Counted from the stretch's first letter, positions 3,306 through 30,340 are shown. The stretch is 33,471 nt of DNA from Rhodospirillales bacterium (GCA_028818565.1 JAPPNV010000053.1:1-33471); one strand, 5' to 3'. Made by a program: numbers and translations. Notes: generated by a model from the letters alone, not told the origin.

Positions 3306-4980
3306 ACGGCGTTCGACAGGACACTCGTGCCGGAGAAACGCCCTGAAGGCGGTTCTGCTGGCCGGGGCGGGCGCGGTGGCCATGACCGGCGCGGCGCCGG
3401 TGCCCGCGCAAGTGCCGGATGACGAGCGGGCCTACCGCCGGGAGGCGCTCGCGCATGCGGGCGCGGTGGAGGCCGCGTGGCGCAGGCTCGAGACCTGGAT
3501 CCTGGAGGAGTCGACCGCTGCCGTGGCATGGCCGGGCGCGGTGCCGCCGGCGGAGACCGGATGGCAGGCGTCGTGGACGCTGCGCGGGCTGGAGGCCAGG
3601 TACTGCGACGACGTCCTGCTGGTCTATCTCGCGCCGGAGGAGCTGAAGGGCACGGGCAACGACCACCGCGCGGTCCACGCCGCGCCGCATACCTACGGCG
3701 GCGGCGACCGACCGGTGCTGCACTGGCTCGAGAACGGCAGAGCCGAAGGCGGCGCCGGACGTGCCGCCGTGACGCTCCCCGCCTGCCTGTCCGAGGCTGC
3801 GCACGGAGGGCCGCTGCCGTCCGGGCGCGCGGCGCTGGCGGGCGGGGTGCCCGACCCCTTCCTCAACACCGTCGAGCAGGTGACGCGCGAGCGGCGCGAT
3901 GAGCCCTGTCCCGCCGGCAGGCACGGCGAGGGCCGCACCCTGATCCGGGAGGTGACGCGGGAGCACGACGGGCGCGGCGATCCGGCGGGCGCCCCGGTCG
4001 AGGGGTCGTGGGAGGTGTCGATCGACCTCTGCCGCGACGACTACAGCCAGTGGGAGCATTACACGCTGGCCTGCCACTGGGACGCCGGGCCGCCGCACAA
4101 CCGGCGCATGGAGGGACGGGAGGTGTGGCGCCGGCTGCGGACGGTGACGGCTACGGGCGAGAGCCTGGGGGCGCCCGAGTTCGTGTCGACCAGCTGCTGG
4201 ACCGACGGCGCCCTGCCGCCGGCGCCGGTGCCGGAGGTTACCGAGGCCTCGCACGAGGAGACGAAGTCCGGATCGTGCCCGGCGGGGTATGTCGGCTCGA
4301 TCGGCTACCGGCGCACGGTGACGCTGCGCTCCACGCGCTTCCCCTGGGACGAAGCCCCGGTGACGCAGACCGTCCGCACGCCGTGGACGGTCGAGAGGGA
4401 CGACTGCGAGGCGGAGGCGGAGCCGGACTGGGGCGGGGCGGACCACGGCGACCACGGGGGAGGCCCCGACGGCGGAACGAGCGGCCCCGGCGGCGATGCC
4501 TGCGGCGGCCCTGCGCCCGGTGAGACGACGGGAGACGTCTGCAGCGCGGACGGAATCGGCGGCCTCGGCGGAGACGGAGACGGCGGGGGCGGCGATGGCG
4601 CGGGCGGCAACGGCGGCTGCTTCCTCACCACGGCGGTGACCGAGCGTCGCGGTGAGCCCGACGACGGCCCGACGCTGACGCTGCTGCGGGCCTTCCGCGA
4701 CGGCTACATGACGGGGACGCCGGAGCGGCGGGCGCTGGTCGCCGAGTACTACGCGATCGCGCCGAAGCTGGTGGCGGCGATCCCGGCGGGCCATGCCGAG
4801 TGGGAGCGGATCGCGCTTGCGGTCGACCTGGCCGCGGACGCCATCGCCGACGGGGCCGGGGACGAAGCCTTCGCCGTCTACGTCGAACTGGTGCGCCGGC
4901 TCAGGGAGGACTGGGGGGCGGCGGCCGGGATCTTCGGCCCGAGGGTCCGGCACGAGTGTCTGGCCGGGAAACGGCCGTGA
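3277..4980 (+). CDS. Secreted Cys-rich protein with C-terminal CFI-box-like domain
   Basis: Strong SD AAAGGAGG 6 nt upstream of ATG 3277; signal-peptide-like N-terminus; CPAG...W.V..C module present twice; Gly-rich linker then GGCFLTTAVTERRG...LTLLRAFRDGYMTGTPERRALVAEYYAIAPKLVAAI. Confidence 0.6.
   Translation: MERGIVATRRRRSTGHSCRRNALKAVLLAGAGAVAMTGAAPVPAQVPDDERAYRREALAHAGAVEAAWRRLETWILEESTAAVAWPGAVPPAETGWQASWTLRGLEARYCDDVLLVYLAPEELKGTGNDHRAVHAAPHTYGGGDRPVLHWLENGRAEGGAGRAAVTLPACLSEAAHGGPLPSGRAALAGGVPDPFLNTVEQVTRERRDEPCPAGRHGEGRTLIREVTREHDGRGDPAGAPVEGSWEVSIDLCRDDYSQWEHYTLACHWDAGPPHNRRMEGREVWRRLRTVTATGESLGAPEFVSTSCWTDGALPPAPVPEVTEASHEETKSGSCPAGYVGSIGYRRTVTLRSTRFPWDEAPVTQTVRTPWTVERDDCEAEAEPDWGGADHGDHGGGPDGGTSGPGGDACGGPAPGETTGDVCSADGIGGLGGDGDGGGGDGAGGNGGCFLTTAVTERRGEPDDGPTLTLLRAFRDGYMTGTPERRALVAEYYAIAPKLVAAIPAGHAEWERIALAVDLAADAIADGAGDEAFAVYVELVRRLREDWGAAAGIFGPRVRHECLAGKRP
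3320..3334 (+). repeat. Family I 15-bp repeat unit
   Basis: GACACTCGTGCCGGA exact. Confidence 0.85.
4933..4960 (-). repeat. Family I repeat, two units (13-bp spacing)
   Basis: TTCGGCCCGAGGG then TCCGGCACGAGTGTC (exact reverse complement at 4946-4960). Confidence 0.8.
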
Positions 4981-6194
4981 GGCGGTCGGCAACAGGGCTG
5001 CGCCTCCTCTGGGCGGCGGCGGGGCTCGGCGCGATGTTCGCCGGCATCGACGCTGCCTGGGGCGAGTCTCCCGGTCCCAACTACAGTTCGCACGGAGCCG
5101 CGTTCCTCGAGCACCTGCTGTCGGGCCGCGTCTGGGTCCTGGAGCGGCCCAACTCGACGCGCGCCGACGACCGGGGCACGGTCTGGGCGCACTACCACGG
5201 GCCCGACGGCACGCTGCTCGCCTGCGCCCATCTCGGCGGCGCCTATGCGGGGGCCACGGCGCGCTGGCGGGTGGTGGGGTCGAGGGCCTTCCGGGCGCTC
5301 TACAACTACCTCGAGCCCGGTGCGGAGCCGGATCCGGCGAGACGGCGCGGCCACACGCCGATCTTCCACGACCCCGGGACCGGCGCGCTCCACAACGAGA
5401 CGCTGTCGGGAACGAGGTGGCGGATCGCCTCGCGCGGCTGGGTGCAGGAGAGCTGGCCGCGGGCGATGAAGGATGCCTGCCCCGGCCTTGCCGTGCCGGC
5501 CTCGCTGCCGGTCAACGAGCGCCAGACCTCGACCGCCTTCGCCACCATGATGGCGCAGGACCCCGCGGCCTCGGTGCGCAACGCGCCGGGATCGCACCTG
5601 CGCGGGCCGGGCGCCACCGGAGTCGCCGCCGCGCAGCGCCGCGTCACGCTGTCGCGCGCGGACCTTGCGAGGTTCCTCGCCGACAACGACGGCTTCGTGC
5701 TGACCGACACCGCCGGCACCCGCCACGTGCTGGTGCTGGGCGAGGCGGGCGACGAGCTCTGGCTGCTCGCGGACGACGGCGCGGTGGCCGACACCGGGCT
5801 GCTGGTGCCGTCCTCGGACGGGACCGGGATCGCGGTCCACTACGAGGGCCTGCCGATACGGCCCAGATACCGGATCGGCGACGCCCTCCCCTTCCTGCCG
5901 ACGGGCGAGCGTTTCACGGCGATGCGCATGACCGACCGGCTCGCGGCGGAGGGGACGCCGGTGGCGCTGCCCTTCCCGGGTCGCGCCGAGACGGTGGTGC
6001 GTCTGGCCGCCGACGGCACGCTTGCGGCGGAGGGCGACGGTGGGGAGAGAGTCCCCGGAACCTGGCGCTGGTCGCGCGGCGAGCTGGTGATGACGCTGGA
6101 GGGGATCCTCGGGCCAGGGACCGAGGCCCGCTATCCCTGGCGCGTGCTCGCCGGCCAGGCGGGACCGGGGACGCTCGTGCCGGGGATCCGATGA
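4977..6194 (+). CDS. Hypothetical secreted protein in pilus operon
   Basis: GTG start in GTGA overlap with upstream stop; hydrophobic N-terminus; no family recognised. Confidence 0.5.
   Translation: MRRSATGLRLLWAAAGLGAMFAGIDAAWGESPGPNYSSHGAAFLEHLLSGRVWVLERPNSTRADDRGTVWAHYHGPDGTLLACAHLGGAYAGATARWRVVGSRAFRALYNYLEPGAEPDPARRRGHTPIFHDPGTGALHNETLSGTRWRIASRGWVQESWPRAMKDACPGLAVPASLPVNERQTSTAFATMMAQDPAASVRNAPGSHLRGPGATGVAAAQRRVTLSRADLARFLADNDGFVLTDTAGTRHVLVLGEAGDELWLLADDGAVADTGLLVPSSDGTGIAVHYEGLPIRPRYRIGDALPFLPTGERFTAMRMTDRLAAEGTPVALPFPGRAETVVRLAADGTLAAEGDGGERVPGTWRWSRGELVMTLEGILGPGTEARYPWRVLAGQAGPGTLVPGIR
6170..6184 (+). repeat. Family I repeat unit (variant)
   Basis: GACGCTCGTGCCGGG close to the stop codon of the 4977-6194 gene. 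Confidence 0.65.
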
Positions 6195-7258
6195 AGGCCG
6201 CGGCACGCAGGCCGGCTCTCGTCCCGGCCGTGGTCCTCTGCGCCGCGTTGACGGTGGCGGCGGACGGCACATGGGCGGGCGGGGAACTCCTGGCGCCGTT
6301 TCCTGGCGCCGCAACGGATGGCGGAGGCAGAACGGCGCAAGTGGCGCCGGAACCCTTGGGCGCGACGGCGGCAAGCCCCGTGGCGCCCGCCGCGCCGGTC
6401 ACGGCCGCGGAGGAGACCGCAAGACCGGCCGAAAACCCCGCCGAACCGGTGACCGGACCCGCCGCGATCGGGAAGCCCGCTGGCAACGGCACAGCGCAAG
6501 ACCGGGCTCGGAATACGCAGGCTGACGTGCCGGCCGGCGGCAGCCGGCTTCTGCGGGCGCTGGCCGGGACGGAGAAGGCGCCGGCCTCGCAGAACGACGG
6601 GACCGCAGGCGCTGCGTCCCGCTCCGGCACGAGTGTCTTCGCTGCCGAGGGCTGTCCCCGCGCGCTGCTGTGGCGGCTGCTGGCGGGCGCGGCCGGGGAG
6701 GCCGACGCGCTGTCGGCGCTCGGGATCGAGCGCGAGATCCTCGCGCTCTGCCGCGAGCGCCAGGAAATCCTCGTTGGCCTGTTCGAGGCGGAAGCCGCGC
6801 TGCGCGAGCTGAGCGCGCCACCGCCGGCCGCGGAACCGGTGGCAAGGACGAGCAAGCCCGTGGCGCCGGCGCCTGCGACGCAGACGATCGCGGCGAGTCG
6901 GGCGGCGACGCCGTCGCCGCTGCGGGCGGCGCTGGTCGCTGCGGAGAACTCGGACGAGGCGGGCCCGAAGGCTCTGGCACGAGTGTCTCCGGCACGAGTG
7001 TCTCCTCGCTACGCGTGGTTTTCGATCATCGGCACCGCGGGCGCGCTCCGTGCCGGCATCACCGACGGATCGGGGGTGTGGTTCGTGCGCGAGGGCGACG
7101 CGCTGCCAGGCGGCGCGAGGATCGCAGCCATCGCCGGGCGCCCGCCAGCGGTCCGGGTGACGGGAGCCGGCGAGGCCTTTGGGCCGGAGACACTCGTGCC
7201 GGAGAGCGGCGAAGCCACCGCGCTGCCGTATCGCGCGCGGCCGGGAGACGCCCCGTGA
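6191..7258 (+). CDS. pilP: PilP-like type IV pilus biogenesis protein
   Basis: ATGA overlap; signal peptide; C-terminal homology-region-like domain (YAWFSIIGTAGALRAGITDGSGVWFVREGDALPGGARIAAI); directly before PilQ. Confidence 0.6.
   Translation: MKAAARRPALVPAVVLCAALTVAADGTWAGGELLAPFPGAATDGGGRTAQVAPEPLGATAASPVAPAAPVTAAEETARPAENPAEPVTGPAAIGKPAGNGTAQDRARNTQADVPAGGSRLLRALAGTEKAPASQNDGTAGAASRSGTSVFAAEGCPRALLWRLLAGAAGEADALSALGIEREILALCRERQEILVGLFEAEAALRELSAPPPAAEPVARTSKPVAPAPATQTIAASRAATPSPLRAALVAAENSDEAGPKALARVSPARVSPRYAWFSIIGTAGALRAGITDGSGVWFVREGDALPGGARIAAIAGRPPAVRVTGAGEAFGPETLVPESGEATALPYRARPGDAP
6623..6637 (-). repeat. Family I repeat unit
   Basis: TCCGGCACGAGTGTC exact. Confidence 0.85.
6973..7002 (-). 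repeat. Family I repeat, two tandem units
   Basis: TCTGGCACGAGTGTC TCCGGCACGAGTGTC. Confidence 0.9.
7174..7203 (+). repeat. Family I repeat, two units
   Basis: GGCCTTTGGGCCGGA GACACTCGTGCCGGA. Confidence 0.8.
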
Positions 7259-8967
7259 CGTGGCAGGGTCGATTGCGGGCACGGTTCCGCGGCTTCGGCG
7301 GTTGGGCGCTGGCGGGGCCGGCGCGCAAGCCGGACCCGGGGCTGGAGCGGTCTGACCTGCCGATCCGGGCGCCCGCGATGGACGCCCGCTTCCGCCGCAT
7401 CTGCGCCGTGTTCGCCGACGGGCGCTGCCTGATCGCCGAGGGCTACGAGCCGGACGACCGGCTGCGCCTCGATCTCGTGGCGCTGCGCCAGGCCGGCGCA
7501 ATCCCGCAGGTGCTCATGGAAGAGAGCGCAACGCTGGAGGAGATCGCCGCGCTCTGGCGGGCGTCCGGGACACTCGTGCCGGGAACCGGCGGCGCTGCGG
7601 TGGACGGCGGCGGCGCGGCGCGGCGCCTGCGTGCCCTGCTGGCGGACGCCGCGGCCGCGCGTGCGAGCGACGTGGTGTTCGAGAACGGGCGCGACGCCTG
7701 CAAGGTCTTCTGCATCGTCAACGATCGCAAGCTGCCGCTCACGGCCCCGCTGACCGCCGAGGAAGGCCAGCGCGTCATGGGCTTCCTCTTCCACTGCAAG
7801 GACGAGGGGTCGTCTCAGACCAGCTACAGGCGGAGCTCCTTCCAGGGCTTCTCGATCCGCGCCGGCGGCGCGGTGCCGCTGCCGGGCGGCATCTCCGCGC
7901 TCCGCTGCGAGCGCGGCCCCCACGACCCCGACGCCGACCACCTCTTCGCACGGCTCTTCTACACCGACCGCCTGGATGCGGACATGACGCTGGAGCGCCT
8001 GGGCTTCTCCGCCGAGGAGGCCGCGCTCTTCGCCGAGATCCGCATGGCGATGCAGGGCGGGGTCTTCATCGGCGGCCGCGCGGGCGACGGCAAGTCCACC
8101 ACGCTCGCCGTCAACCTGGCGCTCCAGATGGCCGAGATGGACGGAAGCCTCAACCTCGTCACGCTCGAGGATCCGGTGGAGTACCGGATCCCTGGCGCCA
8201 TTCAGATCGCGGTGCCGACGGCCGGTGCCGGCGAGACCCGCGCCGGGCACTTCAAGGAGGCGCTGATGCACTTCTGCCGGGTGCATCCCGCATCCGGCAT
8301 GGTCTCCGAGATCCGTGACGCCGACGCCGCGCGGCAGGTGCTGCAGTGCGTCGACACCGGCCACCAGATCTGGACCACCATCCACGTCCACAACGCCAAC
8401 GCCATCCCCTTCCGGCTGATAGACATGGGCATCGGCGCGGCCGAGATGGCGAAGCCGGGCAACGTGGCGCTGCTGATGAAGCAGACGCTGCTGCCGAAGC
8501 TGTGTCCGGCCTGCGCGCTCGACCGCCCGGCGGAAGGCCGCGCGGTGCCGGAGGGGCTGGTCTCCCGGCTCGGCGGACTCGAGGGCCTGCGCTTCAGGAA
8601 CGCGGCGGGCTGCGCCGAGTGCCGCCGGTCGCGTGGCGGCGAGGTCTCGGCGCGCGCCTGGAACGGCTACCTGGGACAGACCGCGATCGCCGAGACCATC
8701 CGCCCGGACGCGGGCTATCTCGGCTTCGTGCGGGCGGGCGACCCCCTCGGTGCCTGGGCTTACTGGCGCAAGGAGATGGGCGGGGTTCCCATCGGGGTGC
8801 GCATCCGCGCCCTGGTGAAGCAGGGCGCGGTGGACCCCTTCGATGCGCTGCTCAAGGGCGGGGCGGGAGAGCACGAGGCCCAGGCCGATCCCCGGCCCGA
8901 GTGTCCCCGGCACGAGTGTCCCCGGCCCGAGGGTCCGGTGGGGGAAGCCGGAGGGGGGTCCCCATGA
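7255..8967 (+). CDS. pilQ: PilQ-type secretion/pilus ATPase (GspE superfamily)
   Basis: Walker A GGRAGDGKSTTL, Walker B-like LVTLEDPVEY, CxxC pairs near C-terminus (CPAC, CAEC). Confidence 0.85.
   Translation: MTWQGRLRARFRGFGGWALAGPARKPDPGLERSDLPIRAPAMDARFRRICAVFADGRCLIAEGYEPDDRLRLDLVALRQAGAIPQVLMEESATLEEIAALWRASGTLVPGTGGAAVDGGGAARRLRALLADAAAARASDVVFENGRDACKVFCIVNDRKLPLTAPLTAEEGQRVMGFLFHCKDEGSSQTSYRRSSFQGFSIRAGGAVPLPGGISALRCERGPHDPDADHLFARLFYTDRLDADMTLERLGFSAEEAALFAEIRMAMQGGVFIGGRAGDGKSTTLAVNLALQMAEMDGSLNLVTLEDPVEYRIPGAIQIAVPTAGAGETRAGHFKEALMHFCRVHPASGMVSEIRDADAARQVLQCVDTGHQIWTTIHVHNANAIPFRLIDMGIGAAEMAKPGNVALLMKQTLLPKLCPACALDRPAEGRAVPEGLVSRLGGLEGLRFRNAAGCAECRRSRGGEVSARAWNGYLGQTAIAETIRPDAGYLGFVRAGDPLGAWAYWRKEMGGVPIGVRIRALVKQGAVDPFDALLKGGAGEHEAQADPRPECPRHECPRPEGPVGEAGGGSP
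7569..7583 (+). repeat. Family I repeat unit
   Basis: GACACTCGTGCCGGG. Confidence 0.8.
8891..8935 (-). repeat. Family I repeat, three tandem units
   Basis: CCCGGCCCGAGTGTC CCCGGCACGAGTGTC CCCGGCCCGAGGGTC in the pilQ 3' end. Confidence 0.9.
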
Positions 8968-10019
8968 TCGCCCGGCTGGCCGCGCCGTTCCGCCGCCTCC
9001 ACGCCGTGCTCGTCATGGGGCGGAAGGCGCGGGTCGATTGTTTCCAGACCGTGGCCGACCTGCTGGATGCAGGCTTCGAGCTGGAGCGGGCGCTGGACGT
9101 GACCGCGCAGGCGCTCGCCGGCAGGGGGGCACGTGCGCGCCTGATCGGGTCCTGGCGGGCGGCGTTGCCGGCCGGCCGCTTCGCCGAGACCATGGCGGCC
9201 TCGGTGCCGGCGGCCGAGGCGATGATCTTCGAGGCCTACGGCAGGGTGGAGGCCGGGCGCCTCTTCGCCGCCGCCGCGCGGGTCGCCGAGCTGCGCGAGC
9301 GCCAGATGGCGGCGGTCAGGAAGGCGCTCGCCATGCCGCTGCTTCTCGGCGTCGCGGTGGTGACCATGCTGTGGGCGGCGGGCGGCTGGTTCGTGCCGGT
9401 GCTGGAGGGCGTGGTGCCGCCCGAGCGCTGGGGGCCGGCCGCCGCGGTCTTCCGCGCCGCCTCGTCCTGGCTGTTTGCGCACCCTCTCGGGTTCGCGCTC
9501 CTCTGCGCCGCCGTGGCGGCTCCGGTGGGCGCCGCCATGCTGTTCTGGACCGGGCCGGGGCGGACGGCGCTCGACCGGATCGCCCCCTTCTCGCTCTACC
9601 GCACCGTCACCGGCTCGGCCTTCCTGTTCGTGGTGCTGGAGTTCCTGGGCGCCGGGCTGGATCTCAACGACCGCGCCTTCGAGGACCTGAAGCGCCGCGC
9701 GGGCGCCTATGCGCGCCACCGCATCGCCGCGATCCAGCGCCACATGGTGCAGGGCGCCGGGTTGGGGCGCGCCATGACGCTGGCGGGCCACGGCTTCCCC
9801 GACCCCGCGCTGGTCCCGGTGGTGGCCGCGCTCGACGGCGTGCCCGGCTGGGAGGTCAAGCTCTCGCGCTTCGTCGCGCGCTGGGTGGACCGCTCCGAGG
9901 ACCTGCTCCGGACCCGCGCCGCCGGGCTGAACGCGGCGCTCCTGATCCTGGTCACCCTGGCGGTCGCCGCCGGCATCGACGCCATGTTCTCGATCCTGCA
10001 ACAGGCCGGGCGGTCTTGA
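8964..10019 (+). CDS. pilR: PilR-like inner membrane platform protein (GspF/T2SSF superfamily)
   Basis: Three hydrophobic segments, T2SSF-like arrangement, directly downstream of PilQ. Confidence 0.75.
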   Translation: MIARLAAPFRRLHAVLVMGRKARVDCFQTVADLLDAGFELERALDVTAQALAGRGARARLIGSWRAALPAGRFAETMAASVPAAEAMIFEAYGRVEAGRLFAAAARVAELRERQMAAVRKALAMPLLLGVAVVTMLWAAGGWFVPVLEGVVPPERWGPAAAVFRAASSWLFAHPLGFALLCAAVAAPVGAAMLFWTGPGRTALDRIAPFSLYRTVTGSAFLFVVLEFLGAGLDLNDRAFEDLKRRAGAYARHRIAAIQRHMVQGAGLGRAMTLAGHGFPDPALVPVVAALDGVPGWEVKLSRFVARWVDRSEDLLRTRAAGLNAALLILVTLAVAAGIDAMFSILQQAGRS

Positions 10020-10039
10020 TCCACGCGAAAGGAGACACG

Positions 10040-10678
10040 ATGAGAGAAACCGCAGGTTTCGGACCCTCCGGCCCCCTTCCCCCTTCGGGCCGCGCGCCCG
10101 GCGGCGCACGCCGCCTCATGCGGCGCTATGCGGCGCGGCGCTACCGGCGCGGCTTCAGCCTGTTCGGCGTGCTGCTGGGGCTGGGCCTTGCCGCCGTGGT
10201 GATCGTGGGCGCCGTCGGCACCTACAACGCGGCGCGCGAATCCGCCAACCGCTCGGCCGCGCTGACGCTGCTGAGCCAGCTCCGGGCCAACGTCGAGGCG
10301 GCCTTCGCCGGCGCGCCGAGCTACGGCAACGCCGCCGACCTGGTGCCCGCCATCGACCGCCGCGGCGGCATTCCGGGCGGCGCGCGGGTGGTGGTCGGCA
10401 GCAAGGCCACCATCCGCCACCCCTTCGGCGGCGCGGTGACCGTCACCGGAGGGCCGGGCGGTATCACCAACCGCTTCCGCATCGTCTTCGAGGACGTGGA
10501 CGACGCGATCTGCGCGGCGCTGGGCGATGCCTTCGCCGGGCGCAGCCGGGCGCGCGCCGGCCTGGTCGAGATGGTGGTGAACGGCACCGCGCTGGCCTCG
10601 CCCGTCACCAACGCGCAGGTGACCGCCAACTGCGACGACGGCGACGCGGCCAACGACATCGGGTTCACCTTCGGATGA
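10040..10678 (+). CDS. pilS: PilS-like major prepilin
   Basis: Prepilin-like RRG|FSLFGVLLGLGLAAVVIVGAV; SD AAAGGAGA; C-terminal Cys (AICAALGD, ANCDDGD). Confidence 0.75.
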   Translation: MRETAGFGPSGPLPPSGRAPGGARRLMRRYAARRYRRGFSLFGVLLGLGLAAVVIVGAVGTYNAARESANRSAALTLLSQLRANVEAAFAGAPSYGNAADLVPAIDRRGGIPGGARVVVGSKATIRHPFGGAVTVTGGPGGITNRFRIVFEDVDDAICAALGDAFAGRSRARAGLVEMVVNGTALASPVTNAQVTANCDDGDAANDIGFTFG

Positions 10679-10708
10679 GACACTCGTGCCGGGGACCCTC
10701 GGGCCGCA
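10679..10708 (+). repeat. Family I repeat, two tandem units directly after the pilS stop codon
   Basis: GACACTCGTGCCGGG GACCCTCGGGCCGCA. Confidence 0.85.
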
Positions 10709-10733
10709 GTCCGCTTCAGACGAGTCTGTTCGG

Positions 10734-12044
10734 ATGAGCGGGAAGATGGACAGGCGGGCGCGCAAGCCCCGCATTCCCAAGCGCCGGCGCGGCGCCTGGC
10801 AGGGAGTTTCCCTGTACCGGGGAGTTCCCCTGTTCCGGCGGCCGATGCTGCGGCTGATGAGGCCGCGGCCACTGCACTGGCGGGGCCGCCACGGGCGCGG
10901 TCGCGACCGGTGCGGCGCCGGCGCGCTGCTGGGCGTGCTGCTGCTGGCCTCTCTCGCGGGCGCGGCGCTCGCCGTCCACTACGAGGCGCGGGCGCACGAG
11001 AAGGCGGTGGCGCTCGACCGGGCCGCCGGACGGGTGTTCGCCGGCTGGGTGCAGGCGGCGCACCGCGCGACCCAGGCGCACGCCGCGGCCTTCGAGGCCG
11101 CGCTCGAGGCGCAGCTCGGCATCCTGCTGACCGTGGCGCGTCTGCGCACGCTCGGCACGGCCCCGCCGGACCTGCCGGAGCGTCCGGGGCGCGATGCGGC
11201 GATGACGCTCGGCGTAATCCCGGACGGGACGGCGCGGGGCGGACCGGGGAGTTCCCCCGTGCCGATGGCGTTCGGCGTTCTGGAACCCCGCTCCCCGTCG
11301 CGGCCGACGGCGATGCGCGCGGGCGCGCTCGACGCGGGGCTCGCGGCAGTGGCGCCGGGGGGAGGCGCGTTCATGGAGGCGCACCGGCCGGCGATCGAGG
11401 CCGCGCTCGGGCGTCCGCTAGCGGCGGACGCGCTCTGGGTCACCGCCGATCTGGGCCTGCGCTACCGGGAGCGCGCGCTCCATCGCCGCGCCCAGCCGGG
11501 ACGGCCCTGGCTCAACCGCATGGAGACCGCGCTGCGCATGGCCCCGCCCGGCGCGGCCGGCCCGGCGCATCCCGCGCGGCGGGACGTCGCGGATGCGGGC
11601 GAGGTGGACGCGGAGGTAGTGGAGATCGGGACGGACATCGCCGTCAGCGGCAGTGCGGACATCGGCGGGCAGGCGGAAGCGGGGAGCGCAAGGGCGGCAG
11701 CGGTCGAGGCCGGTGACGTCGCGGCTCCCACTCTGAATGTCGCGGCGGAGCTCGTGGTGGGCGCCGCCCTGACGGACCGCCTGATGGCGGACCGGGTGAA
11801 GGCGACGCAAAGGCTGGAGGCCGGCGCGCTGCGCGCGTCGGACGTCCTCGATGCGGCGTCGCTCTCGGCCGCGACATCTGTGGCGGTCGACGGCGGCGCT
11901 TCGGCGAACGCGATGGCCGGAGAGACGCTGACGGCTTCAGGGGAGCTCGGCGCGGGCGCCGGCGCGGCGGGCGGCGTCTACGGCCCCGACGCCGCGATCG
12001 GCGTTCTCACCGTCGGCAGCTGCGCCGGCTGCGAGGGCGACTGA
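10734..12044 (+). CDS. PilV-like pilus tip protein, copy 1
   Basis: Prepilin-like hydrophobic helix GAGALLGVLLLASLAGAALAV; repetitive V/A-rich C-terminal region ending LTVGSCAGCEGD, resembling the end of the next gene. Confidence 0.5.
   Translation: MSGKMDRRARKPRIPKRRRGAWQGVSLYRGVPLFRRPMLRLMRPRPLHWRGRHGRGRDRCGAGALLGVLLLASLAGAALAVHYEARAHEKAVALDRAAGRVFAGWVQAAHRATQAHAAAFEAALEAQLGILLTVARLRTLGTAPPDLPERPGRDAAMTLGVIPDGTARGGPGSSPVPMAFGVLEPRSPSRPTAMRAGALDAGLAAVAPGGGAFMEAHRPAIEAALGRPLAADALWVTADLGLRYRERALHRRAQPGRPWLNRMETALRMAPPGAAGPAHPARRDVADAGEVDAEVVEIGTDIAVSGSADIGGQAEAGSARAAAVEAGDVAAPTLNVAAELVVGAALTDRLMADRVKATQRLEAGALRASDVLDAASLSAATSVAVDGGASANAMAGETLTASGELGAGAGAAGGVYGPDAAIGVLTVGSCAGCEGD
10800..10838 (+). 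repeat. Family II palindromic repeat, two tandem 18-bp units
   Basis: CAGGGAGTTTCCCTGTAC CGGGGAGTTCCCCTGTTC CGG. Confidence 0.85.
11244..11264 (+). repeat. Family II palindromic repeat unit
   Basis: CCGGGGAGTTCCCCCGTGCCG. Confidence 0.75.
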
Positions 12045-12051
12045 GGCGGCG

Positions 12052-13218: not shown

Positions 13219-13231
13219 CACTCGTGCCGGA
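13217..13231 (+). repeat. Family I repeat unit at the gene junction
   Basis: GACACTCGTGCCGGA exact, overlaps the stop codon of the PilV-like gene. Confidence 0.85.
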
Positions 13232-13232
13232 G

Positions 13233-17383: not shown

Positions 17384-17398
17384 GAGGGAGGAAAGGAA

Positions 17399-17689
17399 TT
17401 GGAGCCGGCGGAGGTGGCGGACCGGGGCGTTCCCCCGTGGCGGGACTCGATGCGCCCGGTGCGCTTCTACGTGTTCGACGCCCGCCTGCTGATCCTGGCG
17501 GTGCCGTGGCTGTTCCTGCCCACCTGGTGGACCACGGCCCTGGTCGTGGTGGCGATGCTGGCCTGCCGCGCGGCGGAAGCGCGCGGCTACCGCTTCGGCG
17601 CGGCGGTGCGCGCGCTGAGGGCGCTGAGCGCCGGACGGCGCCGGGCGCTCCATGCCGCGCGCCTTCGGCGCTTCGCGGACTTCGGGTGA
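17399..17689 (+). CDS. icmT: IcmT/TraK-like small membrane protein
   Basis: FYVFDARLLILAVPWLFLPTWWTTALVVVAMLACRAAEARGYRFGAAVRALRALSAGRRRA; start TTG 17399 with GGAGG or ATG 17450. Confidence 0.7.
   Translation: MEPAEVADRGVPPWRDSMRPVRFYVFDARLLILAVPWLFLPTWWTTALVVVAMLACRAAEARGYRFGAAVRALRALSAGRRRALHAARLRRFADFG
17422..17440 (+). repeat. Family II palindromic repeat unit
   Basis: CCGGGGCGTTCCCCCGTGG; matches reverse complement of 1846-1862. Confidence 0.65.
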
Positions 17690-18159
17690 TGTGCGGCGTG
17701 CTGGCGATCGTGCTGCTCGCGGCATCGGCGGCGCCCGCCTCGGCGGAGTTCCGCTACGTGCCTCCGGCGGAGGCGGAGTCCGCGGCGGAGCCGGCGGCGA
17801 AGGGCACGGGCGCGCTGCACGAGGATATCGAGCCCCGCCCCGGTCCCGGCCAGGCGGTCTCCGGCGCGAGTGTCTCCGGGCCGAGTGTCTGGCGGGTCCA
17901 TGCCGGGGAAATGCTGCGCGGCGTGCTGGCGCGCTGGGGCGCGCGGGCCGGCACCGAGGTGCTGTTCCTGACCGACCGGCGCTACCGGCTGGAGGGGGAA
18001 GCGGAGTTCCAGGGCGGGTTCGCCGACGCCGCAGGGGCGCTGTTCGCCGCGCTTGCGCATCTGCCGCATGCACCGGAGGGCGCGCTCTCGGCGGACCGCG
18101 CAACGCTCGCCGTGACCCACCGGCTGCCGGGTCCGGCGGAAACGGGAGGGAGGCCATGA
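17689..18159 (+). CDS. PilL/TcpQ-like periplasmic protein
   Basis: Signal peptide; VWRVHAGEMLRGVLARWGARAGTEVLFLTDRRYRLEGEAEFQGGFADAAGALFAAL matches the TcpQ C-terminal pattern. Confidence 0.65.
   Translation: MCGVLAIVLLAASAAPASAEFRYVPPAEAESAAEPAAKGTGALHEDIEPRPGPGQAVSGASVSGPSVWRVHAGEMLRGVLARWGARAGTEVLFLTDRRYRLEGEAEFQGGFADAAGALFAALAHLPHAPEGALSADRATLAVTHRLPGPAETGGRP
17860..17889 (-). repeat. Family I repeat, two tandem units
   Basis: TCCGGCGCGAGTGTC TCCGGGCCGAGTGTC. Confidence 0.85.
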
Positions 18160-19079
18160 ACGGCTGGCTTGGAAACATCGCGATCGCGGGACTGCTTGCC
18201 TTGCCGTTGGCGGGGGCGAACGAGGCCGCGACCGGGAGCGAGCCGGGTCTTGGGCCCGGGGGTCTGGTAGCGGCGCTGCGGGCCAACGGCGCGGAAATCC
18301 TCCCCCTCGGCGCACGGGGCGGTCTGGAGGGGTACTTCGTCACCCCGGCTCGGGGCGGAGGCTACGGCCTCTACGTGACCGGCGACGGTCACGCGGTCGC
18401 GGGGCTCCTCTACGGGCCGGACGGGAGGGAGCTCACCGGCGCCCAACTCGCGGCGTCCCGACCCGCAGCGGCGGTGTCGCACGGGGCCGAGGCCCGCGCG
18501 CCGGAGACCCTCGGGCCCCGGACCTTCGGGCCGCAGACCCTCGGGCCGCAGACCGCGCCGCCGGCCGTCACCGCTCATGCGGAACCTCGAGACTCCGTGG
18601 CTGCTCCGTGGCCGGCATCCATAGCCGGCCTGTTCGAGCGCAGTGCGGCCGCCTTCGGCTTCACGCTGGGCCAGCGGGGCCCCGTGGTGGTTCTGCTGGG
18701 CGATGCGACGTGCTCGTGGTCGCGCGCGGCGGCGGCGCGGCTGGGACGGGCGGCGCTGGACGGCAGGCTGCAGCTCCGCGTGGTGCCGGTGGCGGTTCTC
18801 GGCGGGGCGGCGGCGCGCCGCGCGGCGGCGATTGCCGCGAGTCCCGATCCGGCGCGCGCGTGGTTCGGAGGCGGCGGCGCACCCGGCCGGGCCGGCGCCG
18901 AGAGGATCGCCCGCAACAACGCGCTGCTCGACCAATGGGGTGCAAGCGCCGTGCCGCTGATCGCCTGGCGGACGCGGGACGGCGCGGTTGGGCACCGCAT
19001 CGGCGATATCGACGAAGTCGCCACCTGGCTCCGAGACACCCTCAGGGTGGGAGACACTCGTGCCGGAGGCGAACCTTGA
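18156..19079 (+). CDS. DsbC/DsbG/TrbB-like thioredoxin-fold protein
   Basis: GPVVVLLGDATCSWSRAAAARLG active-site region and cis-Pro-like ASAVPLIAW; active site reads CSWS. Confidence 0.6.
   Translation: MNGWLGNIAIAGLLALPLAGANEAATGSEPGLGPGGLVAALRANGAEILPLGARGGLEGYFVTPARGGGYGLYVTGDGHAVAGLLYGPDGRELTGAQLAASRPAAAVSHGAEARAPETLGPRTFGPQTLGPQTAPPAVTAHAEPRDSVAAPWPASIAGLFERSAAAFGFTLGQRGPVVVLLGDATCSWSRAAAARLGRAALDGRLQLRVVPVAVLGGAAARRAAAIAASPDPARAWFGGGGAPGRAGAERIARNNALLDQWGASAVPLIAWRTRDGAVGHRIGDIDEVATWLRDTLRVGDTRAGGEP
18244..18267 (+). repeat. Degenerate family I variant related to 2062-2121
   Basis: CGGGTCTTGGGCCCGGGGGTCTGG. Confidence 0.5.
18506..18550 (+). repeat. Family I repeat, three tandem units
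   Basis: GACCCTCGGGCCCCG GACCTTCGGGCCGCA GACCCTCGGGCCGCA. Confidence 0.9.
19035..19067 (+). repeat. Family I repeat, one degenerate and one exact unit
   Basis: GACACCCTCAGGGTGGGA GACACTCGTGCCGGA. Confidence 0.8.
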
Positions 19080-19717
19080 GTAGCCGCCTCCAGTCCGTGC
19101 GGGCGGCGGCGCGGAACTTCGCGTTCCACCGCGACCAGCACCACGGCTGGCGCCGCGCCGCCGCCTGGCTGCTCGCCTGCAACCTGCTCACCGCGGTGGC
19201 ATTCGCCGGATACGTCTGGCTGCACACGACGGTCTACATCGCCGTCGCCGCGACGCCGGACGGAAGGCTGGTGCGACTCACCCCGCTCGACGAGCCGATC
19301 ATGTCGGACGCGGCGCTCCGGAACTGGACGGTCTCGGCGGTCACCGAGGCCTTCACCCTCGGCCACCACGACTGGCGGCTCAGGCTCGCCGGCATCCGCG
19401 AATACTTCACCGACACGGGCTACGAGTCCTTCCTCAAGGGGCTCGACGAGAGCCTCTTCCTCGACCGGCTGCGCGACAACCTGCAGGTGGCCTCGGCGGT
19501 GGCCCGGGGCGCGCCGGTGATCGTGGACACGCGCTTCTTCGCGGGCCGCGTCGGCTGGGCCGTCGAGTTCCCCCTCCTGGTCACCTTCGCGGCTGGCACG
19601 CGGAGGGTGAGCCAGGAGCTGGTCGCGCAGGTGCTGGTGATGCGGGTGCCGCTCGACGAGCGGCCTGCCGGCATCGCCATCGAACAGCTCATCGCCGGAA
19701 AGGGAGGCGGGGCATGA
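19076..19717 (+). CDS. dotI: DotI/IcmL/TraM-like T4SS protein
   Basis: Single N-terminal TM, then ...LNWTVSAVTEAFTLGHHDWRLRLAGIREYFTDTGYESFLKGL (IcmL-like); TTG start in TTGA overlap. Confidence 0.8.
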   Translation: MSSRLQSVRAAARNFAFHRDQHHGWRRAAAWLLACNLLTAVAFAGYVWLHTTVYIAVAATPDGRLVRLTPLDEPIMSDAALRNWTVSAVTEAFTLGHHDWRLRLAGIREYFTDTGYESFLKGLDESLFLDRLRDNLQVASAVARGAPVIVDTRFFAGRVGWAVEFPLLVTFAAGTRRVSQELVAQVLVMRVPLDERPAGIAIEQLIAGKGGGA

Positions 19718-20703
19718 GGACCAGCGTCGCCGCAATTCTGCTTCTCGCGCTGCTGCCCCTGACGGCGGCCGCGCAGGAGGGCACCGAACTGCTGGCGCCG
19801 CTGGAGCGGCAAACCGACGCGTGGTCGGGCCATGCGCTCTCCGACGACGACGCGGCGCGCCAGGGGCGGGCGGCGCTCCCCTTCACCAGGGCCCAGATCG
19901 AGACCCTGGGGCGGCTGCTGAGGGAGACGCAGGAAGCCACGGCCAGGGGCGCCGGCACGCCGCCGAGAGGACGTTTGCGGCGCGTCCGCCTCGAAGCACC
20001 GGGGGGCTCGCTTGTCTTGGGGGGCGGGATCCCCGAGATCGCTCTCCGGCGCGGCTACGTCACGGCCGTCTCCTTCACCGACTCGACCGGCGCGCCCTGG
20101 CCCATCGAGGAGGCGCTGGTCGACCGCCGCTTCCTGCCGCCCGACTCCCAAGGCGGTACGGAAGAGGATGCCCCGGGCAGCAGCCACCTGCTCTACCTGG
20201 CGCCGTCCGCCGCACATCTTGGCGGCAACGCGGTGGTGAAGCTGCGGGGGCTGGCCGAGCCGGTGGTGGCATCCCTGCGCGGCACCGGCGCCGACGCCGA
20301 CTTCCGGGTCGAGATCCGGCTCGGCGTGCCCGGCCCCAACGCCGATCCGGGCGCGCTCGCGCAGCCGCGCGGCTTCCATGCCGGCGATGCGGTGCTGCTG
20401 GGCCTGCTTGGCGGCGCCATACCGCCGGATGCCGAGCGGCTTGCCGTCGAGGGCGGAAGCGCCGGCGACCGCGCCTGGCGCCGGGGCGGTGACCTGCTGC
20501 TGCTCACTCGCGCCAACCTGCTCTCGCCGGGCCCTCTCGCGGCCGAGCGCGGTCCCGGCGGTCGCTGGGCCTACCGCCTCGCCGACACCCCCCTCGTCCT
20601 GGTGAGCGACGGGGGCCGGGAGAAGCGGCTGGCGCTGGGCGATGCGGGGACCGGTGCCGACTGGCGGGAGATCCACGAGTTGGAGGACGCCGATGAGGAC
20701 TGA
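19714..20703 (+). CDS. dotH: DotH/IcmK/TraN-like T4SS outer-membrane core protein
   Basis: GGGIPEIALRRGYVTAVSFTDSTGAPWPIEEALVDRRF pattern of IcmK/DotH; signal peptide. Confidence 0.8.
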   Translation: MRTSVAAILLLALLPLTAAAQEGTELLAPLERQTDAWSGHALSDDDAARQGRAALPFTRAQIETLGRLLRETQEATARGAGTPPRGRLRRVRLEAPGGSLVLGGGIPEIALRRGYVTAVSFTDSTGAPWPIEEALVDRRFLPPDSQGGTEEDAPGSSHLLYLAPSAAHLGGNAVVKLRGLAEPVVASLRGTGADADFRVEIRLGVPGPNADPGALAQPRGFHAGDAVLLGLLGGAIPPDAERLAVEGGSAGDRAWRRGGDLLLLTRANLLSPGPLAAERGPGGRWAYRLADTPLVLVSDGGREKRLALGDAGTGADWREIHELEDADED

Positions 20704-21868
20704 CGGCAAGGAGGCGGCGCGGGGGCCGATCATGGCGGGCGCCATATATATAAGTGTGCTGCTGGCCGCCGGTGCGGCGGCAGGCCTCGCCGGTCCCGGC
20801 TGGGCCCAGGTTCCGGACAACCGGGACCTCAGGCTCGATCCCGAGGACAGCGTGTCGCGGGCCTACGGCGAGACGCTGGACGCGCGCGACGGCCAGCGCC
20901 TCGATGCGGCGCGCGAGGCCGGCGAGACCTTCCTGCCCCTCTTCCAGGGATCGTCCTCCGCGCCCGAAGACACTCGTGCCGGAGACCCTTGGGCCGAAGA
21001 GCCTCGGGCCGGAGACGCAAGGGCGTCTGCCGCCGCGCCGCCGCAGCCGGCCTACGAGGGATACCGCCGGCCCGAGCCGGAGCACGCTTCGGGAAGGGAA
21101 CCGGGGCAGGCGGGAGACTTCCGGCCGGAGGGTCTCGTAAACGTGCTGATCGAGGCCTGGACCCGGCCGCCCGAGATCGTCCGCGTGCGCTGGCCGGAGA
21201 CACTCGCGCCGGAGACCCTCGGGCCCGAGGCGGCCGCCCGCGCTCCCGGCGCCAACGAGGACAGGGATGTCCGGGCGGTAGCGGATCGCGAGAGGCGGGC
21301 GGCCGATCCCATCCTACCGCGGATCGCGGCCGGGACCGGGCTCTACGCGCGCACCATGTACGCCGTCGATTCCGACTACCCCGGCCCGGTCCTGCTGGAG
21401 ATCCTGGAGCCGCCGCTCGCCGGCGCCGTGGCCTCGGGCGCGTTCACACTGGTGGGCGAGCGCCTGGTGCTGCGCCTCGGCCGACTCGAATACCGGGGCC
21501 GGAGCTTCGTCGTCGACGCCTGGGCCGCCGGGCTCGACTGCGCCTGCTACGGCGTGGACGGAGAGGTCGACAGCCACTGGTTCGAGCGGGTGCTGCTGCC
21601 GTCCGCCGTGCGCTTCGCCGAGGGCTTCCTCTCCGCCCTCTCGCGGCCCTCCGAGACCGTCACGATCGGCGAGGACGTGCGCTACGAGCGCCGCGGTTCC
21701 GCGACCCGCGACGCTGTCCATGCGGGGCTCGCGACGGCGGCGCGGACGGCGGGCGACGTGCTGCTCGAGAGCGCGCCGGACGGTCCCACCGTGCGGATCG
21801 CTCGCGACACCGAGTTGGTGGTGGTGTTCGCCGCGCCGCCCGATCCGCGGGACGGCCGCGATGGCTGA
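20693..21868 (+). CDS. dotG: DotG/IcmE/TraO-like T4SS core protein (VirB10-like C-terminus)
   Basis: GLYARTMYAVDSDYPGPVLLEILEPPLAGAVASGAFTLVGERLVLRLGRLEYRGRSFVVDAWA...VDSHWFERVLLPSAVRFAEGF pattern of the IcmE/VirB10 C-terminal domain. Confidence 0.8.
   Translation: MRTDGKEAARGPIMAGAIYISVLLAAGAAAGLAGPGWAQVPDNRDLRLDPEDSVSRAYGETLDARDGQRLDAAREAGETFLPLFQGSSSAPEDTRAGDPWAEEPRAGDARASAAAPPQPAYEGYRRPEPEHASGREPGQAGDFRPEGLVNVLIEAWTRPPEIVRVRWPETLAPETLGPEAAARAPGANEDRDVRAVADRERRAADPILPRIAAGTGLYARTMYAVDSDYPGPVLLEILEPPLAGAVASGAFTLVGERLVLRLGRLEYRGRSFVVDAWAAGLDCACYGVDGEVDSHWFERVLLPSAVRFAEGFLSALSRPSETVTIGEDVRYERRGSATRDAVHAGLATAARTAGDVLLESAPDGPTVRIARDTELVVVFAAPPDPRDGRDG
20969..21013 (+). repeat. Family I repeat, three tandem units
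   Basis: GACACTCGTGCCGGA GACCCTTGGGCCGAA GAGCCTCGGGCCGGA inside dotG. Confidence 0.9.
21120..21134 (-). repeat. Family I repeat unit (variant)
   Basis: TCCGGCCGGAGGGTC. Confidence 0.5.
21199..21228 (+). repeat. Family I repeat, two tandem units
   Basis: GACACTCGCGCCGGA GACCCTCGGGCCCGA. Confidence 0.85.
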
Positions 21869-22400
21869 GTCGAAGGACCTCGGCCAGGCCATGATCTCGC
21901 TGGTCAGCGACCTCGAGCCGGGCCTGCTGATCCTGGTCACCGTGGTCTGCTACCTGCTCGCGCTGATCGCGTTGGCCCAGGGGCTGCTGCGCCTGCTCAA
22001 GACTTCCGAGGACAAGTTCCACGCGCCGTCCGCCGGCGGCACGGCGCTCTCCTTCCTGCTCTGTATCGTCCTCGCCGCGCTCCCCTCCTGGCTCGATGCC
22101 GCAGCTGAGAGCCTGTTCGGCACGGCGAGCCCGCCCGGCACCGCGAGTCTCGGATACGGCGGGCGGGGCGCCGACTACGACGCGCTGCTGGCGGCGGTGT
22201 TCGCCCTGGTCGCGCTGGTCGGGCTGTTCGCCTTCATCCGGGGCACCTTCGTGCTCCGCGCTGCCGCCGACGCCCGGCCCGGCGCCACCGGCGCCCGCGC
22301 CTTTGCCCACATGGCCGGCGGTATCGCCGCCTGGCACCTCGGCGCCGTGATCGACGCCGTCCAGACCAGCCTCGGCATCGAAGTGCTGAGCATCCGTTGA
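21861..22400 (+). CDS. TraQ/IcmC-like T4SS membrane protein
   Basis: About four hydrophobic segments, position directly after DotG and before TraR/IcmD-like gene. Confidence 0.55.
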   Translation: MAESKDLGQAMISLVSDLEPGLLILVTVVCYLLALIALAQGLLRLLKTSEDKFHAPSAGGTALSFLLCIVLAALPSWLDAAAESLFGTASPPGTASLGYGGRGADYDALLAAVFALVALVGLFAFIRGTFVLRAAADARPGATGARAFAHMAGGIAAWHLGAVIDAVQTSLGIEVLSIR

Positions 22401-22414
22401 AAGGATTTTTCCGA

Positions 22415-22867
22415 ATGAACCTCACAGGAATCGCAAGAATAATCCGGCGCATCCTGCTGGAGCTGAAGAGGCTCCGTTCAGGGATCGAGGGCGCCGCACC
22501 GCCTGCCGGCCCCCTCGCGGCCGTGCTGATGGTCGCGGCGTGGCTCGCCGGCTCGAGTGTCTGGACCGCGGGGCCGGTGCTGGCGGTCTCGCTGGGCGAC
22601 ATGGCGAAGGAGGCGGCGGGCGATCTCGAGACCGTGCCGCTGCTGATCGCCATCGCCTTCTACATCATCGGCGCCGCCATCGTCGGCTTCGGCCTGCTGA
22701 AGCTCAAGCGCCACGTCGACCACCCGCAGCAGACCACCATCGGCTCGGGGCTGATCGCCATCCTGATCGGCGTCGCGCTGATCGCCGCGCCCGCCGTCAT
22801 CAACGCCTTGGGCGACACCTTCGGTATCGACGGCGGCAGCCACACCGTCCTCAAGCCGAAGCTCTAG
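22415..22867 (+). CDS. TraR/IcmD-like small membrane protein
   Basis: GDMAKEAAGDLETVPLLIAIAFYIIGAAIVGFGLLKLKRHVDHPQQTTIGSGLIAILIGVALIAAPAVI; SD GAAAGGA upstream; position between TraQ- and TraU-like genes. Confidence 0.6.
   Translation: MNLTGIARIIRRILLELKRLRSGIEGAAPPAGPLAAVLMVAAWLAGSSVWTAGPVLAVSLGDMAKEAAGDLETVPLLIAIAFYIIGAAIVGFGLLKLKRHVDHPQQTTIGSGLIAILIGVALIAAPAVINALGDTFGIDGGSHTVLKPKL
22547..22561 (-). repeat. Family I repeat unit (degenerate)
   Basis: GCCGGCTCGAGTGTC. Confidence 0.45.
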
Positions 22868-22896
22868 AAGCCGGAGCTCCGGGAGACGCTCGCATC

Positions 22897-25800
22897 ATGC
22901 CCCTCTCGCTCGCAGCCGCCGCCGACGACCTGCAGCGCCTGAGCTGGACGCTGCGCCGGAAGCCGCTCGAGAGCTTCCTGGCGCCGCAGGCGGCCGTGCC
23001 GCTCGAAGGCGGCGGCGTTCTGGTCTGCCACGACGGCTCGCTGGTCTCGCTCATCGCCGTCGACGGGAGCCGGTCCATGATGGGCGCGGAAGAGCTGGAG
23101 CGCTTCGTCGAGGTTGCGGCGCTGCGCCTCAACACCGCCTTCGCCCATCCCGGCCACGCGCTGCACGTCGTGTTCGAGCGCGCGCCGGACGAAGCCGCAA
23201 CGCTGGCGGAGGGTCATGCGGGGGCCGCGCGGCGGCAAGCCCGCCGGCTCGGGCTCGACCTCGACGACCTGCTGGCGGAGCGCGCGGGCCGCCTGGCGCC
23301 GCTGATCGCCGCCGAGACGCTCGTCATCGCCTGCTGGACGCGGCCTTCCGTTCTGCCGCGCGATCGGCTGGAGCGCGACCGCAAGGGGCTCCGCAGGAAG
23401 CTGCGCGACTGGCTGCCCGGGGCCGGCGAGGCGCAGTGTGCGCATCTCGCGCTCGAAGGGCTGTGGGCGCGCCACGAGGCGCTGCTGGACGCGGTCTCCG
23501 CCGTGCTCGCCGAGACCGGGATCGCGGGCCGCAGGCTGACGGACGAGGCTGCGTTGCGTCTCATGCGGCGCATGGTCAACGGCGCGGCGTCGACGGCGCC
23601 GGACTGGCGCCCGGTCACCGCCGCCAACGACGCGCCCGCGCGGCTGACCGAGCCCCCGGAGGCGGGCGCTTTCCCGCCGCCTTTGGCACCGCAGCTGCTG
23701 GTCCGGGAGCCGGAGCGGACCGGCGGCGGCATCCGCATCGGCGGGCGCCTCTACGGCGCGCTCGACATGAGCCTGGGGCCGCGCAAGGCGCGGCCGTTCA
23801 CGGAGCTGATGGCGGGGCTGGCGGCCGCCGGGCTCCGGCCCGAGGGTCTTCCCTGCCGCTTCTCGCTGCTGATCGAGGGCGGCGGCCTGCACCGGCTGGA
23901 CGCGGCGATCTCCCGCGTCGCCTCCTCCTTCCTTGCCTTCTCTTCCGCCGACAGCCTGCTCGCCAGGAACGCGCTGAGGGACCTTGCGGCGCTTGGCGGC
24001 GACGCCCATGCCATCGTCCGGCTGCGGCTCGGATTGCTCACCTGGGTCGCAGCGGAGGACGCCCAGGCTGCGCTCGCCGCCCGGCTCGGCCGCCTGCAGC
24101 AGGTGGCGGAGGGCTGGGGCGAGGCGGCGTTCACCGCGCTGACCGGCGATCCGCTGGAGAGCTTCGCGGCCTCGGTGCCCGGTTTCTGCTGCGGCGCCAC
24201 CGCGGAGCCCGCCCTGGCGCCGCTTGCGGAGGCGCTTCGGCTGTTGCCCGTAAGCCGCCCGGCGCCGCTGGGCGCGGGTAGCGACGCGGGCGCCGCACAC
24301 CTGTTCCGCTCGCCCGACGGCAAGCCCCTGCCTCTGGCGGCGGACCAGGGCGGGGACTACGGCTTCGAGCTGATCTACGGCCTGCCCGGCCAGGGCAAGT
24401 CGGTGCTGATGAACGCACTGGGACTGGCCTTCTCGCTCCAGGGCGGCCAGGCGCGGCTCCCGCTCGCCGCGGTGATCGACATCGGCCCGTCGTCCTCGGG
24501 CCTGGTCTCCCTGGTCCGCGAGGCGCTGCCGCCGGACCGCCGCCACGAGGCCGGCTGGTTCCCGCTCCGCATGACGCCCGAGCACGCGATCAACCCCTGC
24601 GACACCCAGCTCGGCTGCCGCAGCCCCCTGCCGGCCGAGCGCGCTTTCCTGACGAACCTGCTCGGCCTGATGGTGACCCCGGCCGGGACCGCCGGCGTGC
24701 CCGACGGCATGCGCGAGCTGCTGGGACCGGCGCTCACCGGCGCCTACGCGATGCGCTCCGACAAGGTGCCGGGGGCGGAGCCTCACGCCTACACGGAAAG
24801 CCGCGACGCCGAGGTCGATGCCGCGATCGCGGCAGCCGGGCTGCGCCTCCCCGGCGATCCCCTCTGGTGGGAGGTGGTGGACCTGCTGTTCGACGCGGGC
24901 GCGGTGGACGCGGCGGCACGGGCGCAGCGCTACGCGGTGCCAACCCTCGTCGACCTGCTTGCCTCGGTGCGCGAACCCGCCGTGCAGGGGTTGGTCGGCG
25001 ACGCGCGCTACGGCTCGGGCGGCGAGACCGTTACCCAGGCCTTCATTCGCATCCTGACGGCGCTCTCGGGCGACTGGCCGGTGATGTTCGCGCCTACCGC
25101 CTTCGACGTCGGCGGCGCGCGTCTCGCCGCGATCGACCTCGCGGAGGTGGCGCCGCAGGGCTCGGCCGAGGCCGACCGGCAGTCCGCCGCCTTCTACCTG
25201 CTGGCGCGCCACGCGCTCACCCGCCACTGGTGGATCGCCGACGACGCTCTCGGCGCGGTTCTGGAGCCCTACCGCGACTGGCATGCCGCGAGGCTGCGCG
25301 AGATCCGCGAGTCCCCCAAGCGCCTCTGCTACGACGAGTTCCACCGCACCGCGGGCGCGCCCGCCGTGCGCGCCCAGGTCGAGCGCGACGTGCGCGAGGC
25401 GCGCAAGCTCCGGGTGCGGCTCGCGCTCGCCTCCCAGCGCCTCGACGATTTCGGCGGCGCGCTCGCCGAGCTCGCCAACCGCTACTGGATCCTGGGCGCC
25501 GGCGGCAAGGTGGCGGAAGCCGAAGCGCTCGCCGCGATGTTCTGCCTGAGCGGCACGCTCGACGACGCCGTCCGCTACCGCCTCACCGGACCCGGCCGCG
25601 ACGGCGCGCCGGCGCTGCTGATCGCGGCCGGCCAGGGCGGACGCTTCGAGCATCTGTTGGTCAACACGCCGGGCCCGGTCGAGCTCTGGGCGCTGACCAC
25701 CAGCCCGGCGGACGCGGCGCTGAGGCGCCGGGTCCATGCGCTGCTGCCGGCCGCGGCGGCGCGTGCGGCGCTGGCGCGCGCCTTCCCCGAAGGCACGGCG

Positions 25801-25974: not shown

Positions 25975-25991
25975 CCGAAAGGAGGCACGGA

Positions 25992-28094: not shown

Positions 28095-28098
28095 GACC

Positions 28099-30303: not shown

Positions 30304-30340
30304 CCCTGTCCGCGATGCATTTCATCCGAACCGGAGGCCC

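Follow-up and report, generated by a model that had tools for sequence, protein, structure and literature searches.

Whole 15-bp DNA units inserted within the conjugation genes of a Rhodospirillales genus

What causes one 15-bp sequence to recur throughout a set of conjugation genes, on both strands and in every reading frame? The question is raised by contig JAPPNV010000053.1 of a Rhodospirillales bacterium (GCA_028818565.1), which is analysed here over its full 33,471 bp (the window) and carries a thin-pilus and Dot/Icm-like (MPF_I) conjugation module. The 15-mer, GACACTCGTGCCGGA, defines repeat family A. Comparison with related elements showed precise, target-preferring and frame-neutral insertion of whole units. 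These micro-insertions act at the DNA level and are not peptide motifs. With a probability of about 0.55, we take the 15-mer to be a micro-unit that inserts as DNA, entering specific targets as a whole unit and probably doing so by means of a nick-and-join enzyme.

Ten exact copies of family A are present in the window (3320, 4946, 6623, 6988, 7189, 13217, 15732, 15747, 19053 and 20969). Matches with ≤ 3 mismatches number 34 and are spread across 20 kb, occupying about 21 loci on the two strands. A preliminary description, made from the sequence alone, had placed every exact copy correctly, and its estimate of the loci occupied by close variants agrees with these counts. It had also dismissed chance, and dinucleotide shuffles bear this out, giving 2.53 matches (maximum 7) vs 34. 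Codon-order shuffling within genes, which keeps codon usage, gave no exact copies and 1.3 at ≤ 3 mismatches, so the excess of units stands once codon usage is taken into account. Chance combined with codon usage was rejected on the basis of both types of shuffle. In the elements studied, where neighbours on one strand were closer than 60 bp, the spacing was exactly 15 bp in 70 cases and any other value in 6; A units are thus often tandem.

Related-element contigs from other members of the genus were aligned to the window and indels were compared site by site (L, G and C numbers are our labels for loci, genomes and contigs). Repeat-containing indels were a multiple of 15 bp in 35 of 38 cases, compared with 15 of 147 other indels (all pairs, single-site events being partly multiply counted). 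For 41 of 106 arrays, a script joining the flanks found an ortholog that lacked the array and was gapless at the exact junction. These exact-junction empty sites show neither target duplication nor target loss. Among the cleanest cases is a gene for a strawberry-notch-type helicase (so labelled from a domain found in the related L095 gene), in which the empty allele reads GGCTGGGAGACCGTG and the filled allele GGCTGGGA-GACACTCGTGCCGGA-GACCGTG. The unit is missing from L129 and L131-L133 but occupies the site in L128 and L130, the flanks being nearly unchanged. Clean 15n-bp insertions, which the preliminary description had proposed looking for, were found in the orthologous pil and dot genes (Table 1).

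The flanks of A arrays reveal a target rule, with a purine on the left (65/68) and, on the right, G (61/68) followed by A (54/68). Of 34 empty alleles treated as independent sites, 17 had R^GA (R, purine; the caret marks the junction), against a background of 2.66% (p ~2e-18). R^GA is also the unit-unit junction of family A and, because the unit starts with GA and ends with A or G, it is recreated by each insertion. Insertion phase is nearly fixed, since phase 0 (the R^GA junction) gave the best fit for 23 of 31 arrays, and for 29 it was at most one match short of the best. Religation of restriction fragments at CCGG was dropped as an explanation, CGGA not being consistently present on left flanks.

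Replication template switching could generate the same alleles if, at the target, a nascent strand terminating in GGA or GA annealed to a tandem array elsewhere, copied n units and switched back. Exactly 15n bp would then be added without duplication, slippage would alter array length and a dedicated enzyme would be unnecessary. This is quite possible, though we do not favour it. Template switching accounts for the exact length, the lack of target duplication, the junction-like targets and the tandem arrays, it sits well with the finding of no Y1 transposase (see below), and at the helicase-gene site the match to the unit junction does extend over 6 bp (GGAGAC). However, any part of the unit, above all CCGG in GC-rich DNA, should serve for annealing and the phase should be variable, whereas it is nearly fixed. 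Matches also seldom extend beyond GAC (A at +4 in only 6/68), and template switching leaves unexplained why it is mainly the conjugative elements of one genus that are affected.

All window units except two fall wholly within one gene. All six translations of the unit occur there, including the peptides that the preliminary description had named, correctly, for orf3, PilP and DotC; per array, TLVPE is found about eight times, RHECL/RPEGL four, SGTSV three to four, DTRAG three, and PARVS and HSCRR once each. That description also stressed that the unit is open in six frames. This is true of the unit, but the emphasis was misplaced, as 67% of random tandem 15-mers at the GC content of the window (74%) share the property and it needs no special explanation. 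The commonest frame per unit is TLVPE/TLGPE (15/35 units), as expected if hydrophilic linkers are best tolerated. The predominance of this frame, and the location of many inserts near termini, would also fit peptide linkers (for example, TLVPE and DTRAG) that were selected as such and share their DNA by coincidence. Such linkers are very improbable. Six frames and both strands are in use, which is why a protein motif was rejected, codon shuffling produces no excess, and the peptides are unconserved at orthologous sites, where most orthologs are without the peptide. The last two results, together with the clean insertions and the restricted distribution of the unit, support the earlier suggestion that it spreads as DNA.

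In the host genome (4.14 Mb) all 14 exact copies are on three contigs, C192 (the window), C199 and C101, which together comprise 41 kb, so unit A is not a genome-wide feature. Outside the conjugative-type, plasmid-like elements, the genome showed no enrichment. When 60 relatives were sampled, more than one match was obtained only within the same genus (reversed-pattern controls, 0 to 1 per genome), two members of which, G002 and G006, had no match to the strict pattern. A scan of 84,980 species genomes for the tandem form detected it in only four metagenome-assembled genomes (MAGs; Rhodospirillales or Alphaproteobacteria), matching this uncultured genus. No convincing copy of A, or of the two sister families B and C described below, was present in the plasmid and viral collections searched, and module relatives on other alphaproteobacterial plasmids showed no comparable excess of 15- or 18-bp tandems, with a mild excess in a Methylorubrum megaplasmid. 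On long contigs, units are concentrated in the transfer-gene region. Other contigs that carry them have genes of F-type type IV secretion systems (TraB/TraV on L084, G007:C115; TraN on L031, G000:C161; a TraW_N match on L028, G000:C199), and still others, L095, L128 and L130, are RadC and helicase contigs. Units sit within F-type secretion genes and helicase genes, and family A thus crosses unrelated conjugation systems. The presence of both A-bearing and C-bearing elements within one genome, G007, speaks for spread within element lineages. An artefact of the assemblies, which are fragmented and, where named, MAGs, might be suspected, or chance in GC-rich DNA. This is hardly credible, given that the families recur in several separately named MAGs with clean reading frames and that both the reversed-pattern controls and the shuffles contradict chance.

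Elements free of the 15-mer, namely L092 (321-16000), L061 (3438-8253), L088 and L089, carry other dispersed 18-bp families, B and C. Family B (ACCRGGGNGTTCCCCYGN) comprises 51 arrays, 21 of which have empty orthologs and are clean insertions; its target is G^Y (Y, T or C), with G at -1 in 39 of 51 and T or C at +1 in 46 of 51. Family C has the core CACCCCTNCGGGYGG, and its exact form is present only in G005:C95 and a few G007 contigs, several of which are module relatives. In L078 (9220-9345), A units are nested in B units and the B sequence is restored once A is removed. The preliminary description overlooked the sister families, as it did the target-site rule and the spread to F-type secretion genes. 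A side observation concerns G005:C95 (L092 and L120-L123), where a conjugation module with TrwB/TrwC is followed by apparently chromosomal genes, which suggests an integrated conjugative element.

Most shuffles fold less well than the consensus units of B and C. Within the A unit, bases 4 and 9 vary together (as A-T or C-G), with 206 Watson-Crick pairs vs 104 in permutations, which may reflect a dyad constraint or merely two subfamilies. The folding of B and C, the dyad CMC-TC-GKG of family A with its co-varying arms and the confinement to mobile elements are all consistent with functional DNA or RNA sites (for protein binding, transfer or packaging signals, or transcript control) multiplied for the benefit of the element rather than selfishly. 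We consider such a role improbable, since position and copy number vary between related elements at almost every site, some related elements are without the 15-mer, the units are located within coding genes and the same role would be filled by several unrelated families.

Two other repeats were seen in related elements. An inverted pair of A units, facing each other 27 bp apart and set in similar sequence, occurs in L075 (10017-10058), L079 (8242-8283) and L082 (4355-4396), none being seen in the window; it is possibly a hairpin or terminator-like structure. The 17-bp repeat CCGGCATCAGCGGATGC is variable in copy number at one place (L078 2903-2932, L048 81 and L079 13625) and is presumably non-coding, since 17 bp is not divisible by three.

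The nearly fixed phase and the confinement to conjugative elements favour a junction-cutting enzyme. A sequence-specific DNA-processing enzyme would nick the junction and transfer short single-stranded pieces between junction-like sites. The insertions themselves show n x 15 bp added at short sites that are similar to the ends of the unit (R^GA), in any frame and either orientation. Regeneration of R^GA at both edges leaves the site open to more units or to expansion into a tandem array, and a 3n length without stops keeps the host gene open. Selection presumably retains inserts in tolerant linkers and termini. A RAYT/Y1 transposase (PF01797) was rejected as the mover, being absent from eight genomes of the genus, with five control genomes positive. 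TrwC-type relaxases (HUH, MOB_F) are encoded on L103 and L120. TrwC of R388 integrates DNA site-specifically at 17-bp targets (PMC3264647) and, by analogy, the HUH relaxase of these elements is a candidate enzyme, since confinement to conjugative elements, the lack of duplications and junction specificity all fit a nick-and-join reaction. The analogy lies in sequence-specific nicking and joining by an enzyme family that these elements carry; the known reaction inserts transferred plasmid DNA rather than 15-bp units. Only tentatively, and with some doubt, may the units be described as enzymatically mobilised nano-elements of 15-18 bp, 3n long, that reside inside conjugative-element genes and owe their movement to a junction-specific DNA-processing enzyme, of which the element's own relaxase would be an example. 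In L103 (10500-10560) an inverted repeat, CTGCACA-CC-TGTGCAG, lies upstream of the TrwC-like gene; it is a possible origin of transfer (oriT) with no clear likeness to the units.

Several points weigh against target-specific insertion by such an enzyme. As the target equals the unit junction, 2-6 bp of microhomology could mimic a recognition site, and sites without the right-hand GA mostly have the left-hand A, a pattern also compatible with microhomology to the left or to the right. The sites are not all independent and, with ortholog identity of 70-90%, some junctions are blurred. Family A units fold no better than shuffles (z ~+0.3), and a single-strand hairpin for this family is unsupported by folding. 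The relaxase step, which would link a TrwC-like enzyme to the units, is a conjecture by analogy, and inspection by eye of the sequence upstream of relaxase genes, to compare oriT regions, revealed nothing unit-like.

The units resemble several known systems in part. Rickettsia palindromic elements (~150 bp; PMC10969869), to which the preliminary description likened them, are DNA inserts tolerated in-frame within unrelated protein genes, as is found here; the likeness does not extend to length, distribution or folding, as the present units measure 15 or 18 bp, frequently stand in tandem, are read in six frames and occur only in conjugative-type elements. Yeast mitochondrial GC clusters (for example, GC42) are short, GC-rich sequences that proliferate at a preferred AG target with no known autonomous enzyme (PMC4478555). 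They share with our units a short target preference (R^GA for A and G^Y for B) but are 42 bp long, mostly intergenic and organellar, whereas the units are intragenic, 3n long and in bacterial conjugative elements; as to a palindromic fold under constraint, folding exceeded that of most shuffles for B and C but not for A, in which one pair of bases co-varies. The units are of a kind with Rickettsia palindromic elements (as inserts in genes) and with GC clusters (in target preference), and are a member of neither, since length and location differ. REP/REPIN sequences are also short, dispersed and often palindromic, and mobilisation in trans by a Y1 (HUH) transposase has been proposed for them. 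They are overwhelmingly extragenic and accompanied by a RAYT gene (PMC3116915), whereas the present units are intragenic in a genus without Y1/RAYT. PARCEL, too, is repeated in tandem within genes, shows dyad symmetry in its DNA and is linked to mobile elements in some taxa. It is a 25-residue protein motif (PMC2996958), in contrast to a 15-bp DNA unit that encodes five residues in six frames, with no conserved 25-residue repeat. A miniature inverted-repeat transposable element would differ in having terminal inverted repeats, which the 15-bp unit lacks, and target-site duplication, which is absent at exact-junction empty sites. A simple (variable number) tandem repeat would occupy one locus and vary in copy number only, whereas family A forms 106 arrays at dispersed positions and 41 of these have empty orthologs. 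Shufflon sfx sites are recombination sites clustered at the pilV 3' end and accompanied by an Rci recombinase; the units extend over 20 kb. A PilV with a Shufflon_N domain is encoded in the window (12052-13218), and no recombinase family was found among the window proteins scanned. A limited search of the open-access literature, which cannot prove novelty, yielded no description of these units; the 15-mer itself retrieved unrelated papers only, and intragenic short hairpins nothing matching.

Table 1. Repeat units and their host module in the window (A, 15-bp family; B, 18-bp family; ×, number of units)
Feature	Coordinates	Strand	Location and orthologs
MPF_I/thin-pilus module hosting units	193..32347	+	Secretin, PilQ ATPase, PilS, PilV/Shufflon_N, TcpQ, DotD, DotC, DotB, DotI, DotH, DotG, SSB, coupling protein
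A ×1	3320..3334	+	N-terminus of orf3 (HSCRR)
A ×2, 13-bp offset	4933..4960	-	C-terminus of orf3 (FGPRV..RHECL)
A ×1	6170..6184	+	C-terminus of orf4; L096, L087 empty
A ×1	6623..6637	-	PilP-like gene (SGTSV)
A ×2	6973..7002	-	PilP-like gene (LARVSPARVS)
A ×2, first degenerate	7174..7203	+	PilP-like gene (AFGPETLVPE)
A ×1	7569..7583	+	PilQ ATPase; three orthologs without 18 bp
A ×3	8891..8935	-	C-terminus of PilQ (RPECPRHECPRPEGP)
A ×2	10679..10708	+	Boundary PilS/prepilin-like gene; ~45 bp missing from L081
A ×1	13217..13231	+	Spans pilV stop codon; common to L083, absent from L078, L076, L081
A ×3	13310..13354	+	orf11 (TLVPETLGPETLVPE); L083 partial, other orthologs without
A ×2	14338..14367	+	PilL/TcpQ-like gene; clean 30-bp insertion vs orthologs
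A ×2	15732..15761	+	DotC/TraI (DTRAGDTRAG); L081 ×1; none in L076, L078, L080, L088, L089, L092
A ×2 clear, 1 degenerate	17845..17889	-	Second TcpQ-domain gene; ortholog copy number varies
A-like ×4	18491..18550	+	TraL/Dsb-like gene; orthologs with fewer or additional units
Related 18-bp unit GACACCCTCAGGGTGGGA	19035..19052	+	Adjoins A unit at 19053
A ×1	19053..19067	+	C-terminus of TraL/Dsb-like gene; ortholog array length highly variable
A ×3	20969..21013	+	DotG/TraO
A ×1, degenerate	21120..21134	-	DotG/TraO
A ×2	21199..21228	+	DotG/TraO; L078, L075, L048 empty
A-like	22547..22561	-	Small gene preceding TraU (AGSSV)
A ×1	23834..23848	-	TraU; clean 15-bp insertion, absent from seven orthologs
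B ×2, 18-bp	1829..1863	-	C-terminus of PilN; L077 empty
B ×2	10798..10832	+	Prepilin-like gene
B ×1	11243..11259	+	L078, L080 empty
B ×1	17421..17437	+	orf16

If a dedicated mechanism moves the 15-base unit, few mobile-like DNA units on record would be as short and, if confirmed, these units are among the shortest shown to insert at numerous distinct sites according to a target rule, doing so within core transfer genes while leaving the reading frame intact. Filled and empty alleles side by side provide a natural record of how very short sequences multiply, whether through an enzyme recognising a few bases or through replication error. The units also supply mobile elements with new in-frame protein linkers, and they show unrelated conjugation systems of one genus to have such parasites in common.

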